DNA from: Gemmatimonadota bacterium
GTDB lineage: Bacteria; Gemmatimonadota; Gemmatimonadetes; Gemmatimonadales; Gemmatimonadaceae
NCBI GenBank assembly: GCA_028287305.1
Contig: JAQBPX010000021.1
Location: forward strand, 1 to 64,000
DNA: 64,000 bases
Direction of reading: 5' to 3'
Below are positions 2,307 to 58,346 of the stretch, in pieces. The notes below the pieces were generated by a model that searched no databases, was not told the origin of the DNA, and worked only from the letters and a program-made list of their open reading frames with translations. A program made the position numbers and the translations under genes. Every line of letters starts with the position of its first letter. Position 1 is the first letter of the stretch.

Positions 2307-4106
2307 CTACTCGTCGATATCCAGCGGAATGTCCATCGGAATGTCGATCGCGTCGCCATCCTCGGTGTGGATCTTCGACGGCGTTTCCGGACGCGGCGGC
2401 TGCTCCTCGGGGATGTTGACCACGCTGAGCACGATGCGGCGATGGATCGGATCGACCTCGAGCACTCGCGTATCCAGCAGCATCGTCTCGTACACCACGT
2501 CCGCCGGGCTGTTGACCGGCTGGCCGTCGAGCGTGAGCTGCGAGATGGGCACGAAGCCCTCGATATCGTTGCCGATGTCCACCACGACGCCCTTGTCCAT
2601 GAGACGAACGACCGTCGAGCGCATCTCCGTACCAACCGGATAGTTCTCGCCGATGCGAAGCCACGGATCTTCCTCGGCCTGCTTCAGGCCGAGCGAGATG
2701 CGCTTGTTCTCGCTGTCGATGTTGAGGATCACGACGTCGACCGCATCGCCCTTCTTCACGACTTCCGACGGATGCTGGACGCGCTTCGTCCAGCTCATGT
2801 CGGAGATGTGAATGAGGCCGTCGATGCCCGGCTCGATCTCGACGAACGCACCGAAGCTCGTGAGGTTGCGAACCTTGCCGTTGATGCGCGTGCCCACCGG
2901 GTACTTCAGCGGCAGCACGACCCACGGATCCTGCTCCGTCTGCTTCATGCCGAGCGAGATCTTCTCCTCGTTCGGATCGACCTTGAGCACCACCGCCTCG
3001 ATCGTCTCGCCGATGCTGACGAGCTTCGACGGGTGGCGGACGTTGCGCGTCCAGCTCATCTCGGAGATGTGCACCAGGCCTTCGATGCCCGGCTCGAGCT
3101 CGATGAAGGCGCCGTAGTTCGTGATGCTCACCACCTTGCCCTGCACGCGGGTGCCGACCGGGTACTTGTCGGCGACGTCCTTCCACGGATAGCTCTGGAG
3201 CTGCTTGAGGCCGAGGGAGATGCGCTCGCGCGTCCAGTCGATATCCAGGACCTTGACCTCGAGCTCCGCGCCGATCTGCACGAGCTCGGACGGATGCGAG
3301 ATGCGGCCCCACGACATGTCGGTGATGTGGAGCAGGCCGTCGACGCCGCCGAGGTCGATGAAGGCACCGAAGTCGGTGATGTTCTTCACGACGCCCTTCC
3401 GCACCTGGTCCTTCTCCAGCTCCTTCATGAGCTTCTCGCGCTTGCCGGCGCGCTCGTTCTCGAGGATGACTCGACGCGAGACGACGATGTTCCGGCGGCG
3501 CTTGTTCAGCTTGATGATCTTGAACTCGAACTTCTGGCCGAGCAGCTCGTCGATGTTCGGCACGCGACGGAGCGCGATCTGCGACCCCGGGAGGAATGCG
3601 TCGACGCCCATCAGGTCGACGACGACGCCGCCCTTGATCTTCTTGACGAGGGTGCCCTCGACCGGCTGGTCGTTCTCGTACGCGAGGCGGATCTTCTCCC
3701 ACACGCGCATGAAGTCGGCCTTCTTCTTCGACAGCACCACGGACCCTTCCTGGTCCTCGAGGTGCTCGAGAAGGACTTCGACCGTGTCACCGGGCTTGAG
3801 GTCCGGCATGTCCTTGAACTCTTCGAGCGGGACAGTGCCTTCGGACTTGAAGCCGATGTCGAGGACAACGGTGTTGTCGCGGATCGACTGGACCGTCGCC
3901 TTGACGATCTCGCCTTCGTCGATCGACGCGAGGGTGCCGTTGTAGAGTTCCAGCATCCGGTCGTAATCTTCGGACGTGTACTCGTCTTCGTCGTAGAGCT
4001 CCGGACGGCGGTTGGCCAGGGGACGGAGCTGGGCGCGCTGCTGGTCGCGCTTCTCACGCTTGCTCAGGGCAGCGGCGGAGAGGGTTTCGAGTTCAAGCTC
4101 AGACAT
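2307..4106 (-). CDS. rpsA: 30S ribosomal protein S1
   Basis: Ribosomal protein S1 (599 residues) helps the 30S subunit bind and unfold mRNA. Six consecutive S1/OB-fold repeats are visible. The later ones carry near-identical signatures such as GLVHISEMSW, GLIHISDMSW and KRISLGLKQ, each preceded by YPVGTRVQGKV-like linkers. The last repeat is followed by an acidic tail. The start is placed at the internal ATG giving MSELELETLS, because the N-terminal extension in the longer reading frame has no S1 character. It is the last gene of the dapE-to-rpsA polycistron, 98 bases after cmk, the same cmk-rpsA order found in many bacteria. Confidence 0.97.
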   Translation of the reverse strand: MSELELETLSAAALSKREKRDQQRAQLRPLANRRPELYDEDEYTSEDYDRMLELYNGTLASIDEGEIVKATVQSIRDNTVVLDIGFKSEGTVPLEEFKDMPDLKPGDTVEVLLEHLEDQEGSVVLSKKKADFMRVWEKIRLAYENDQPVEGTLVKKIKGGVVVDLMGVDAFLPGSQIALRRVPNIDELLGQKFEFKIIKLNKRRRNIVVSRRVILENERAGKREKLMKELEKDQVRKGVVKNITDFGAFIDLGGVDGLLHITDMSWGRISHPSELVQIGAELEVKVLDIDWTRERISLGLKQLQSYPWKDVADKYPVGTRVQGKVVSITNYGAFIELEPGIEGLVHISEMSWTRNVRHPSKLVSIGETIEAVVLKVDPNEEKISLGMKQTEQDPWVVLPLKYPVGTRINGKVRNLTSFGAFVEIEPGIDGLIHISDMSWTKRVQHPSEVVKKGDAVDVVILNIDSENKRISLGLKQAEEDPWLRIGENYPVGTEMRSTVVRLMDKGVVVDIGNDIEGFVPISQLTLDGQPVNSPADVVYETMLLDTRVLEVDPIHRRIVLSVVNIPEEQPPRPETPSKIHTEDGDAIDIPMDIPLDIDE

Positions 4107-4204: not shown

Positions 4205-4951
4205 TTAAAAGTAGCGCTTCCAGCCGCCACCGTCAACTTCGGAACTCCCGTCCGTATTGCGACTTACGGCCCGCGCCAGCGACTCGATCCGGTCCACCTG
4301 CTCCGCCTGCGTCAGGTACGTCGAGTCGATCAGCACCGCATCAGCTGCCTGCACGGTCTGCTGGGAGTCCTTCGCGTCTCGCTGGACCAGCCGTTCCGTC
4401 TCCTCGGCCACCTCGCCGTCCGAGGGCAGTCGCTCCAGCCGCTGGACCAGCCGCCGCTTGGCCCGCTCCCAGGGGTCGGCCACCAGGAAGATCTTGAGCG
4501 CGGCATCCGGAAAGACCGCCGTCCCGATGTCCCGGCCGTCCACCACCACGGCGTGCTCCCGGGCGGCTTCCCGCACGCGGGCGTTCACCCACTCGCGCAC
4601 CGGCTGCATCCGCGCCACCCGCGACACCTGGGAGGTGACCGCGGTGCTGCGCAGTTCCTCGTCGCAGTCCTGGCCATCGAGCAGGGCTGCAAAGGTCCGA
4701 TCGGTCGGCACCAGCTGAATCGACGACGCGGCCGCCAGAACGCCCTCCGGGGTCCAGCGGTCGGCATCGGGCTCCACCCTGAGCGCCGCCGCGGTGGCCG
4801 CGCGGTAGAGCGCCCCGGAATCCACATGGCGAATGCCGAGCCGCTGCGCCACCCACTGCGAGGTGCTCGACTTGCCCGAGGCCGCCGGGCCGTCGATGGC
4901 AATCACGAATTGCGAAGGACCGGTCTCGGGCATCTGGTCAGGCGGTGACAC
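4205..4951 (-). CDS. cmk: (d)CMP kinase
   Basis: Cytidylate kinase (248 residues) phosphorylates CMP and dCMP using ATP. The P-loop GPAASGKSS is at about 21-29, followed by RHVDSGALYRA, the conserved Cmk DSG(A/S)-Y-R motif that contacts the nucleotide. VVVDGRDIGTAVFPDAALKIFL follows later in two conserved segments, and RDAKDSQQ lies near the C-terminus. The start is GTG 4951: GGGAGGAG lies about 7 bases before it, inside the end of aroA, giving a 14-base overlap. An ATG at 4933 has no ribosome-binding site. It lies between aroA and rpsA. Confidence 0.97.
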   Translation of the reverse strand: MSPPDQMPETGPSQFVIAIDGPAASGKSSTSQWVAQRLGIRHVDSGALYRAATAAALRVEPDADRWTPEGVLAAASSIQLVPTDRTFAALLDGQDCDEELRSTAVTSQVSRVARMQPVREWVNARVREAAREHAVVVDGRDIGTAVFPDAALKIFLVADPWERAKRRLVQRLERLPSDGEVAEETERLVQRDAKDSQQTVQAADAVLIDSTYLTQAEQVDRIESLARAVSRNTDGSSEVDGGGWKRYF

Positions 4952-12093: not shown

Positions 12094-12122
12094 GTTGACT
12101 TGCAGGAACAAAAACGCTAATT
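12094..12122 (+). promoter_or_regulatory. Sigma70-type promoter for the lysine-rich/Rad52-like operon
   Basis: TTGACT (12094-12099), a 17-base spacer and TAATTT (12117-12122) predict a start near 12129 and a leader of about 50 bases to the GTG at 12179. The promoter overlaps the in-frame ATG at 12095, which rules that ATG out as the start of the downstream gene. Confidence 0.75.
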
Positions 12123-12178
12123 TGCTGTACCCGAATAGACGCCGAATCCGGCACCGGGAAACACGTTCAGGAGCGGTG

Positions 12179-12526
12179 GTGGCTTCCGCGAAGAAGAAGG
12201 GACGGGCGGCCGTGCGGGGAAAGGCGAAGCCGAAGCCCCGGGCCAGGGCGAAGAAGCGGGTGAAGGTGAAGGCGAAGAAGCAGGCGAAGGTGAAGGTGAA
12301 GGCGAAAGCGCCGGCGGTCGCGATGCGGATGATCGATCTCGACCCCGTGCGGAAGTGCGGACCAGCCACCTCGGTGGAGCGGCTGATCCGGGTGGTGGAA
12401 AAGAAGGATGCGGAGGTGGTGAACCACCTCGTGTTCCTCGACCGCCACGGGTGGTACTGCGAGCACGGCCGGGGCTGTCCGGCGGTCGCGCCCGCACGCA
12501 AGCACGCCGGACGCGCTTATCGATAG
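12179..12526 (+). CDS. Lysine-rich histone-H1-like protein with a C-terminal Cys/His module
   Basis: Small basic protein (about 115 residues) that I do not assign to a named family. The start is the second of two tandem GTG codons (12176, 12179); AGGAG at 12169-12173 is 5 bases from the second. The N-terminal half is nearly all Lys, Ala, Arg, Val and Pro in KAK/KVK repeats, like histone H1 or AlgP-type tails that coat DNA. The C-terminal 60 residues are ordered and contain RKCGP, HLVFLDRHGWYCEHG and RGCPAV, giving three Cys and several His that could bind a metal or mediate contacts. The Rad52-like gene follows 23 bases later. Confidence 0.7.
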   Translation: MASAKKKGRAAVRGKAKPKPRARAKKRVKVKAKKQAKVKVKAKAPAVAMRMIDLDPVRKCGPATSVERLIRVVEKKDAEVVNHLVFLDRHGWYCEHGRGCPAVAPARKHAGRAYR

Positions 12527-12549
12527 CGCCGCCGCAGGCGGCAAGTGGA

Positions 12550-13353
12550 ATGGACACAAACGCAAAGGATGAGAGCATCATGATCGCACGACACGAACCG
12601 GCGCTCGAGCGCGCGGACCTCTGGGCGCGGCTGGCCGCGCCGGTGAATACGGACACTATTTCCTGGCGGCAGGACGGGCGCGTGATCCAGCGCGACGGCC
12701 GCTTCTACAGCCGCTTCGTCTGCTACATCGAGGCGAACACCGTTCGAGAGCGCCTCGACAGCGTGGTCCCGGGTGAGTGGGACCTCACGCTCGACCTGCT
12801 CCCCCCGTCGCCAGGCGTAGCCGATGCGGAGCAGGCCGTCTCATTCAAGGCGCGGCTGCAGGTGCTTGGTGTCACCCGTGAGGACGTCGGCACGGGCAAG
12901 GACTACAAGCAGGCCGCGACCGATGCGTTCAAGCGCGCGGGCGTGCGATTCGGCATCGGCCACGAGCTCTACGCGTACGAGCAGAACTGGGTGCCGATGG
13001 ACGGCGACGGCAAGTACGCCAAGCCACTCGAGGATCCCGCCGACGCGTACGCGCGCCGCACGGGAACTGCGGTGCGGGGCGAGTCGCGAGACGAGTCGCG
13101 TGGTGAACTGCCGAGCGCGGACGCGACGCAGTCGCTCGCCGCGGCAGATGAACCGAGCTGCCCGGAGTGTGGCGGTCGCATGTGGGATAATCGCGCTACC
13201 AAGCGGAACCCGCGCGCGCCGGACTTCAAGTGCCGGCAGCGCTCGTGCGACGGAGTGGTGTGGCCGTCGAAGGGCGCCACTACTGCATCGGCTGCAGGGC
13301 CGACTCCGGCCGAGGAGATGGACGCGGCGCTGGCGGGGGAGATTCCGTTCTGA
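12550..13353 (+). CDS. Rad52/Rad22-like single-strand annealing protein
   Basis: Predicted annealing protein of 267 residues. The segment GTGKDYKQAATDAFKRAGVR (about 114-133) followed by FGIGHELYAY matches the Rad52_Rad22 core, where lysines and the KRA helix contact single-stranded DNA. A disordered linker (about 165-200) leads to a four-cysteine zinc ribbon with Cys at about 204, 207, 228 and 233, then an acidic tail ending GEIPF. That resembles the acidic tip of SSB but is not proof of the same role. ATG 12550 is used; ATG 12580, after GGATGAGAG, is an alternative. It is likely co-transcribed with the lysine-rich gene upstream. Such proteins are often phage-derived, but no phage genes are nearby. 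Confidence 0.8.
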   Translation: MDTNAKDESIMIARHEPALERADLWARLAAPVNTDTISWRQDGRVIQRDGRFYSRFVCYIEANTVRERLDSVVPGEWDLTLDLLPPSPGVADAEQAVSFKARLQVLGVTREDVGTGKDYKQAATDAFKRAGVRFGIGHELYAYEQNWVPMDGDGKYAKPLEDPADAYARRTGTAVRGESRDESRGELPSADATQSLAAADEPSCPECGGRMWDNRATKRNPRAPDFKCRQRSCDGVVWPSKGATTASAAGPTPAEEMDAALAGEIPF

Positions 13354-13370: not shown

Positions 13371-13680
13371 GCGCTCCACACGTAGGAGTCCGTGGGGCGT
13401 AACGAGGGTCGCTGGGGAACTACGCACGCGAATGGCCGCTGAACTGCAACGGCAGATGGCCGCGGTACTGCGACGACCACCGATCTTTTGAAACAGCACA
13501 TCAATTGCGCTCGTGCCCGACTGGTGTGCAGTTACAAAAGGGTGTTGCAGTTCTCTGCTACAAAAGGGTGTTGCAGTTCTCTGCCGTTGCAGTTTCTGCA
13601 GTCGCAGTGCAGCGGCCATTCGCGTGCGTAGTTCCCCACCAGGCCCCATTACGCCACACAACGCCCTACGTGTGGAGCGC
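13371..13680. repeat. 310-bp element with 71-bp imperfect terminal inverted repeats (MITE-like)
   Basis: Arms 13371-13441 and 13610-13680 are inverted and equal in length. The outer 16 bp and the inner 28 bp are perfect; the 27 bp between them have drifted. No transposase gene is inside. The interior holds a tandem 26-bp repeat. The element fills the gap between the Rad52-like stop (13353) and tRNA-Leu (13694). No clear target-site duplication is visible. It could be a non-autonomous mobile element or a large hairpin. Confidence 0.7.
13533..13584 (+). repeat. Two perfect tandem copies of a 26-bp unit
   Basis: 13533-13558 and 13559-13584 are identical (unit begins TACAAAAGGGTG and ends GTTCTCTGC). 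A degraded third copy of the TTGCAGTT part follows. They lie in the loop of the 310-bp inverted-repeat element. Confidence 0.9.
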
Positions 13681-57281: not shown

Positions 57282-58346
57282 TCACCGTCGAGTGACTTCC
57301 CCGGTGAGACCACAGTCGATCGCCCCCGACAGCTCGAGCGTGGTCACCGCGGCCAGGCATTCGCCGGCCGGCAGCCCCGTGAGCGAGCACAGGTCGTCGA
57401 GGGATCGGCCTCCCTTCCCCAGCGCGTCCCACACCGCGCGCTCGGCGGGTGTCGAGGCGCCAGTCGGCGCATGCACCGCGGGAGTGAGCCCCGCGAGCTG
57501 CAGGACGTCGGCGACGTCGGCGATGACGATGGCTCCGTCGCGCATGTAGCGGTTGCTCCCCGCGCAGTGCGGCAGGTCGATGGGACCGGGAACGATGCCG
57601 AGGGGACGATCCAGCTCCATCGCGTGATCCGCGGTGCGCAACGCGCCGCTCTTGAATGGCGCCTCGACGACGATGATCACGCGCGCGAGCGCCGCGATGA
57701 TCCGGTTGCGCTCGGGAAAGGAGCCGCCGTGTGCGCGGTCACCGGGATGCAGCTCGGAGACCAGCAGTCCCTTCTCGGCGATCTCGCGATGCAGCCGCGC
57801 GTGCTGGCGAGGGTAGGCGATGTCGATGCCGGTGCCAAGGACGGCCACGGTGGCGCCACCGGCGTCCAGCGCGCCGCGATGCGCGGCGGCATCGATGCCG
57901 CGCGCCATTCCGCTCACCACGCATCCGCCCGCGCGCGCGACGGCGCTCGCGATGCTGCGCGCAACGCGTTCTCCATATGCGGTCGCATTGCGGGTCCCCA
58001 CGATCGCCACAGTGGGGATGTCGAGCAGGCTCGCATCCCCGGCAAGCCACACGATCACCGGGGGCCGGGCGAGGTCCAGCAGACGCGCGGGATACGACGC
58101 GCCGCCCTCGAGCAGCATCCTCGCCCCGATCGATCGGCTCGCATCGGCCAGCCTTGCGTCCGCGTCCGCGCGAGCCCGCGCCGCGTCGCCTGCAAATGTC
58201 GCATCCAACGCGTTCGTCGCGGACCCGAATGCTGCCACCTGCCTTCGCCACTCCACGGCCCCCACGTTTTCGACGAGGGCCAGCGCGAGGGCATCGCGCT
58301 CGTCAGGGGAGCTCGACGTCCTGCTTGCGCTGTTCGAGGACGACAT
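57282..58346 (-). CDS. dprA: DNA-processing protein DprA
   Basis: 354 residues. DprA protects incoming single-stranded DNA and loads RecA during natural transformation. The Rossmann-like core has VAIVGTRNATAYGERVA, VVSGMARGIDAAAHRGAL, LGTGIDIAYP, ERNRIIAALARVIIVVEAPFKSGAL (two adjoining segments) and PGPIDLPHCAGSNRYMRDGA. A C-terminal winged helix (AERAVWDALGKGGRSLDDL) follows. ATG 58346 overlaps obg by 44 bases. It is the only visible competence gene. Confidence 0.94.
   Translation of the reverse strand: MSSSNSASRTSSSPDERDALALALVENVGAVEWRRQVAAFGSATNALDATFAGDAARARADADARLADASRSIGARMLLEGGASYPARLLDLARPPVIVWLAGDASLLDIPTVAIVGTRNATAYGERVARSIASAVARAGGCVVSGMARGIDAAAHRGALDAGGATVAVLGTGIDIAYPRQHARLHREIAEKGLLVSELHPGDRAHGGSFPERNRIIAALARVIIVVEAPFKSGALRTADHAMELDRPLGIVPGPIDLPHCAGSNRYMRDGAIVIADVADVLQLAGLTPAVHAPTGASTPAERAVWDALGKGGRSLDDLCSLTGLPAGECLAAVTTLELSGAIDCGLTGEVTRR

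Follow-up and report, generated by a model that had tools for sequence, protein, structure and literature searches.

A chromosomal gene pair of Gemmatimonadaceae, bacteria that live for the most part in soil and fresh water, encodes a protein assigned by profile and modeled fold to the Rad52 superfamily (here designated Rad52A), together with a small partner protein. New in this system are a module that ends like single-stranded DNA-binding protein (SSB) and is common to unrelated annealing proteins, and a partner family with two predicted DNA tethers. Rad52-type proteins are known mostly from eukaryotes and phages; the best-known chromosomal case in bacteria is DdrA, the mechanism of which is unclear. 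With a probability of roughly one in two, the pair is a chromosomal repair or recombination unit, in which Rad52A would act as a mediator of annealing or of gap and end processing, its C-terminal tip would recruit SSB-binding proteins, and the small protein would be its DNA-tethered partner.

A conserved gene pair in one chromosomal slot

In the window (the whole 64-kb stretch of DNA analyzed here), the two genes are located codirectionally on the forward strand at positions 12179–12526 and 12580–13353, and both are conserved in relatives. The reading frame of Rad52A is also open from an ATG at 12550, and only from there does the gap of 23 bases hold that the sequence-only reading had given. 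Because the relatives share the same MIARHE beginning and the GGATGAGAGcATG start region, the conserved ATG at 12580 was chosen as the start, resulting in a protein of 257 amino acids and a gap of 53 nt. Across the loci, the spacing from the small gene to the Rad52A gene ranges from −4 to +149, and the −4 overlap (ATGA), found in six of them, suggests translational coupling.

Full-length Rad52A is encoded in 33 of 148 Gemmatimonadaceae genomes. One of these (G027) was left out of the adjacency count as its Rad52A gene is cut by the end of the contig; in all of the 32 testable genomes, the small gene is found immediately upstream on the same strand, as had been predicted for a two-gene unit. 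Nine of the 148 genomes contain the small gene without that for Rad52A, while the reverse was not seen, which suggests that the small protein also functions independently of Rad52A. Co-occurrence of both genes resulted in a Fisher P of 1e-24, a value that is overstated since the genomes were counted as independent, and is due in part to shared ancestry. In genera g5 and g17, some species possess the complete pair, and others lack both genes.

Gene calls on 20 fetched regions placed most of the pairs, including that of the window, into a single chromosomal slot. One flank is formed by the divergent genes dapE/asd/lysC/dapB/dapA, the other by tRNA genes together with recN, dxs, and two further conserved genes. 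No phage genes were seen within the 64-kb window, and no defense genes were recognized near the pair. The pair is a chromosomal, probably vertically kept unit of Gemmatimonadaceae and not a prophage, which bears out the non-phage location claimed initially. The associated statement that phage genes are missing holds for the window, but has to be qualified by a phage-type homologue on a viral contig and by a C-terminal module common in phages (see below).

It had further been proposed that the pair may be related to dprA (at 57282) and to DNA uptake. A natural transformation module, in which the pair would cooperate with DprA on single strands taken up by the cell, is, however, highly improbable: single-stranded DNA is the substrate of DprA as well as of annealing proteins, and dprA is present in the window, but nothing else was found in favor of such a link. 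The gene is 44 kb away, among housekeeping genes, and the conserved neighbors of the pair are the lysine biosynthesis, tRNA, recN, and dxs genes, with no competence genes among them.

Rad52A and its relatives

In Rad52A, the Rad52 core is followed by a C4 zinc ribbon, which a short linker connects to the terminal GEIPF. Residues 12–138 (positions 12613–12993) match the Pfam profile Rad52_Rad22 (PF04098) with an E value of about 4e-9 and 37 bits (cut-off 20.3); the PHROG profile of Erf-like SSAP is matched with 1.9e-14. The AlphaFold2 model of Rad52A, built from 21 sequences, has a mean pLDDT of 70.6, i.e., medium confidence, with values between 74 and 93 for most of the core. Its only matches in the PDB below an E value of 0.001 are Mgm101 (9yi9; 2.8e-5) and human RAD52 (8rjw; 4e-4), and in a viral structure library it matches phage Rad52-type proteins. 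Both a significant profile match of the core and its fold, a β-sheet with β-hairpin and helix, were thus found, and on these grounds Rad52A is a predicted member of the Rad52 superfamily, in agreement with the assignment made before any profile search. Yeast Mgm101 and eukaryotic RAD52 share this predicted core fold with Rad52A, but have neither the zinc ribbon nor the SSB-like tip; in eukaryotic RAD52, partners are bound at different sites of the C-terminal part.

The gene for Rad52A is the sole Rad52_Rad22 locus in its own genome. Outside of the phylum, its relatives are Rad52-family proteins of Deinococcota, also bacterial and encoded on chromosome or plasmid, with a core identity of 34–39%, and two phage proteins; among the control genomes, those of Thermus and Deinobacterium matched the family. 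The Deinococcota proteins, such as DdrA and WP_239725236 from a plasmid of Thermus sp. (L196), have the Rad52_Rad22 core, but unlike Rad52A lack the zinc ribbon, the SSB-like tip, and the CEHG partner gene. The Erf-like protein of Rhodothermus phage RM378 (NC_004735; L199) is 34.5% identical to the Rad52A core, but this phage gene product of about 164 amino acids leaves no room for ribbon and tip. Members of family f6 of the same class (L200–L206) have a Rad52-like gene on the chromosome that encodes neither ribbon nor tip, and which in several genomes is found near a gene the product of which starts with MKSEP.VYSID (EVE-domain-like).

In vitro, DdrA of Deinococcus, a member of the same Pfam family, bound and protected 3′ ends, while annealing was not detected (PMC515370); the Rad52A core may, therefore, either anneal strands or only guard 3′ ends. 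If the latter were the case, Rad52A would be an end protector of the DdrA type, which does not anneal, but caps single-stranded 3′ ends and so limits their degradation when cells have been damaged or desiccated, and the small basic protein would compact or bridge DNA near the ends. The kinship with the Deinococcus and Thermus proteins, and the fact that the control genomes with a family match are those of Thermus and Deinobacterium, are consistent with this explanation. It is nevertheless rather unlikely, as ribbon and tip, absent from the Deinococcota proteins, point to recruitment over passive capping, and as this combination otherwise occurs on annealing proteins of phages. Rad52A is near the Deinococcota proteins in sequence, but does not share the architecture of DdrA; long branches leave the tree unsure.

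A zinc ribbon combined with an SSB-like tip

The C4 zinc ribbon of Rad52A (CPECGGRMWDNR..KRNPRAPDFKCRQRSCDGVVW; positions 13159–13263) is nearly invariant in the orthologues. It is followed by a linker of 13–68 amino acids, which is unalignable among them, and by [ILV]PF, usually with an aspartate or glutamate before it, at the very C-terminus of 26 out of 30 orthologues; of the other four, one is truncated by the end of the contig. In the window, the tip EIPF-COOH (the protein ending GEIPF) is encoded at 13339–13350, and the SSB of the same genome ends ALADDDDDLPF. The tip of E. coli SSB (MDFDDDIPF) has the same arrangement, a variable linker followed by a terminal acidic-hydrophobic-Pro-Phe; that of Rad52A differs in being attached to an annealing-type protein, not to an OB-fold SSB, and, in the protein of the window, in having fewer acidic residues. 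Rad52A thus has the acidic-[ILV]-Pro-Phe end after a disordered linker by which proteins bearing an SSB C-terminus are recognized, and from its sequence this end is read as a copy of the SSB tip. The sequence-only reading had correctly listed the ribbon and an acidic tail ending GEIPF, but the ending matches the SSB tip and is not a generic acidic tail.

The SSB tip is a docking site for many proteins, and RecO was present in 16 of 16 genomes tested. In the complex of RecO with the SSB tip, only the last proline and phenylalanine were seen bound (PMC7913777), and recruitment of the annealing protein Sak4 to coated DNA requires the tip NDYPPF of a phage SSB (PMC5928155). A description of an SSB-tip copy on annealing proteins was not found in the open-access literature searched.

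Members of clade g32 have kept the ribbon and lost the tip, and one orthologue ends DLTI; thus, the tip is not essential everywhere. Such losses of the IPF-type ending in a few orthologues would be expected if it were a functionless, inherited remnant and the core alone accounted for the activity of Rad52A. This is, however, quite improbable, because the ending was retained at the very C-terminus past linkers of differing length and sequence, and because it recurs on unrelated core folds. Ribbon and tip were also found on a RecT-family protein (L213, 6971–8245, reverse strand; Pfam RecT E 2e-29) ending DDDIPF, on an AAA_24/RecA-like ATPase (L214, 4961–5923, reverse strand) ending GEIPF, and on proteins made up of two ribbons only (L208, 5661–6131; L211, 6003–6446).

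When the ribbon alone was used to search viral contigs, 77 loci were obtained, 50 of which encode proteins that are of the ERF type by their N-terminus, and all of these 50 end x-P-F or x-P-Y. Control ERF relatives were fetched by N-terminus, with a query modeled on the ERF N-terminus pattern rather than on one record and used for this purpose only; judging the presence of the ribbon by eye from the C-termini, an x-P-F/Y end was found in eight of eight with the ribbon, versus 2 of 17 without it. These phage annealing proteins have a zinc ribbon and an acidic-x-PF end like those of Rad52A, but differ from it in their ERF core and in being phage-borne, and no CEHG partner gene was seen with them. 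Both ribbon and tip are absent from the Rad52-like proteins of sister type B, of family f6, and of Deinococcota. The zinc ribbon with the [acidic][I/L/V]PF end is a portable module.

A homologue on a viral contig

When viral contigs were searched with the whole Rad52A alignment, nothing was found; only via the zinc ribbon did a close homologue of Rad52A (E 1.7e-108) emerge, encoded at 514–1281 of viral contig L223 (IMGVR_UViG_3300011102_000453). It has the ribbon, but ends AEGY. Its neighbors are a gene for a DnaB-like helicase and an initiator-like gene, and the gene upstream (151–354) encodes an unrelated Cys-rich protein of 67 amino acids. In the tree, the L223 homologue is placed inside the unresolved Rad52A clade, which indicates that the gene was exchanged between phage and host, in a direction that the tree does not fix.

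A phage-typical module and a close homologue near a DnaB-like helicase gene, grouping with Rad52A in the tree, might argue that Rad52A is a domesticated phage annealing gene, kept against phages or other elements, e.g., by acting as a decoy for, or competing with, phage recombination, and regulated by the small protein. That the pair occupies a single fixed site beside housekeeping genes in most of Gemmatimonadaceae, without recognizable defense genes nearby, renders this explanation improbable, and the position of the L223 copy fits transfer in either direction. Elsewhere, at 4535–8172 of L209 (G014:C2), three genes related to Rad52A/B are clustered, one of them ending LALPF and two missing part of the core; this cluster looks like a mobile element.

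The small partner and its paralogue

The small partner gene of the window (type A; 115 amino acids) starts with GTG at 12179, with GGAG at 12170, and stops at 12524–12526. Its N-terminal tail (12179–12316), 46 residues with 16 lysines, 5 arginines, and neither aspartate nor glutamate, is predicted to be disordered (pLDDT 53–67), and the tail differs in length and sequence between relatives, from long to nearly absent. Conserved is a domain of ~65 amino acids (12317–12523; ...HLVFFDRHGWYCEHG..CPAV..AR...), modeled by AlphaFold2 with a pLDDT of mostly 91–97 and with the consensus LDP..KCG.GTSV..L.RV.E......HLVFFDRHGWYCEHG..CPAV..AR. Cys94, His96, and Cys100, plus either His83 or the cysteine of KCG, possibly form a metal site. 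The initial reading as an H1-like nucleoid protein is not supported: a long, conserved lysine-rich tail would be the main feature of such a protein, but here the tail varies, and what remains constant is a distinct domain specific to Gemmatimonadaceae.

In a collection of 84,980 species, the domain was found at 51 loci, all but a few of which are labeled Gemmatimonadota, and within the phylum it occurs in 44 of 298 genomes, all 44 of them Gemmatimonadaceae. It was not found in viral contigs. One locus (L145; CALQGY020000010.1) belongs to a record titled Candidatus Kuenenia, which is probably a mislabeled or mixed bin. Searches of Pfam, NCBIfam, and PDB folds did not result in any match for the domain, and the best hit in a structure library had an E value of 1.7. 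The partner domain constitutes a new protein family, confined to Gemmatimonadaceae. A relationship to SWIM zinc fingers (CxCx(n)CxH) was considered and rejected, as none of 23 members matched Pfam SWIM and hhalign against a Thermus SWIM protein gave 0.2%; homology to the zinc ribbon of Rad52A was not found either. On Thermus plasmid L196, a SWIM zinc-finger gene (1787–2089) lies shortly upstream of the Rad52-family gene (2504–3094).

A paralogous branch, type B, has C-x2-H in place of C-x-H and is without the long lysine tail. Just before the domain, 30 of 32 distinct type-B proteins contain the pentapeptide Q-x-[DES]-[LFIM]-[FWYL], 13 of them exactly as QLDLF; no such clamp-type pentapeptide was found in 41 type-A proteins. 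The type-B sequences agree with the β-clamp binding motif Q-phi-x-[LM]-[FL], and QLDLF is the strongest pentameric β-clamp-binding peptide reported (PMC11139829). The partner domain, therefore, probably acts at DNA or at sites of replication. The genome of the window has a type-B gene as well (G000:C21:58112-58402; L216 6080–6343, reverse strand), which encodes a QIDLF motif followed by the partner domain, and which has no adjoining Rad52 gene. In genus g15 (L215, L099), the type-B gene follows a different, second Rad52-like gene. With type A beside Rad52A and type B beside the g15 gene, each type can adjoin a Rad52-like gene, albeit with a different tether.

Proposed role

If the pair is a repair or recombination unit, Rad52A would assemble on single-stranded DNA and then either bring about annealing of complementary strands or protect 3′ ends. 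With many SSB-like tips, as suggested by motif and conservation, such an assembly could recruit SSB-interacting proteins of the host, such as RecO, PriA, or RecQ, to the strand it coats, and thereby displace or bridge SSB. The small partner, encoded by the first gene of the operon, would tether its conserved domain to DNA via the basic tail and may serve as accessory, loader, or regulator of Rad52A, a contact to which the genetic coupling points. Of the chromosomal annealing or repair module envisaged initially, the chromosomal Rad52-type pair has stood, but not its nucleoid and dprA parts.

Beyond this pair, it is tentatively suggested, at somewhat less than even odds, that there is an undescribed general class of Rad52, ERF, RecT, and AAA/RecA-like proteins, which have a common ribbon and a built-in SSB tip and take over the SSB network of the host. 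In Gemmatimonadaceae, one of them would have become a chromosomal repair factor, served by new small proteins that are anchored either on DNA, by the basic tail, or on the sliding clamp, by QLDLF. Whereas Sak4 reads the SSB tip, Rad52A would carry the tip itself, a reversal testable with short peptides. The two branches of the partner family, with their two different DNA-tethering devices, provide a handle on how annealing proteins are placed on DNA, and Rad52A of Gemmatimonadaceae offers a testable bacterial counterpart of eukaryotic Rad52.

Promoter and surroundings of the operon

As read from the sequence, the operon is preceded on the forward strand by a −35 element, TTGACT (12095–12100), a spacer of 17 nt, and the −10-like TAATTT (12118–12123). 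A similar element, TTGAC/TTGC-17-TAnnTT, is present 5′ of the small gene in most relatives. The single strong promoter claimed before is thus there as an element, but its −10 hexamer is too weak for a stock promoter scan, which called none upstream of the small gene. In the promoters of the relatives, no clear palindrome indicative of LexA/SOS control was seen. TTGACNTACGTNAC was considered as a shared operator and rejected: with at most two copies per genome, there was no sign of a regulon at the stringency used.

Behind the operon, an inverted repeat of 86 nt (13371–13456 and 13595–13680) is found, the arms of which are 83% complementary and 138 nt apart. The repeat has 23 matching places in the genome, several of them as opposed pairs, and belongs to a dispersed palindromic repeat family. 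Between its arms, a stretch of 26 nt is perfectly duplicated in tandem (13533–13584).
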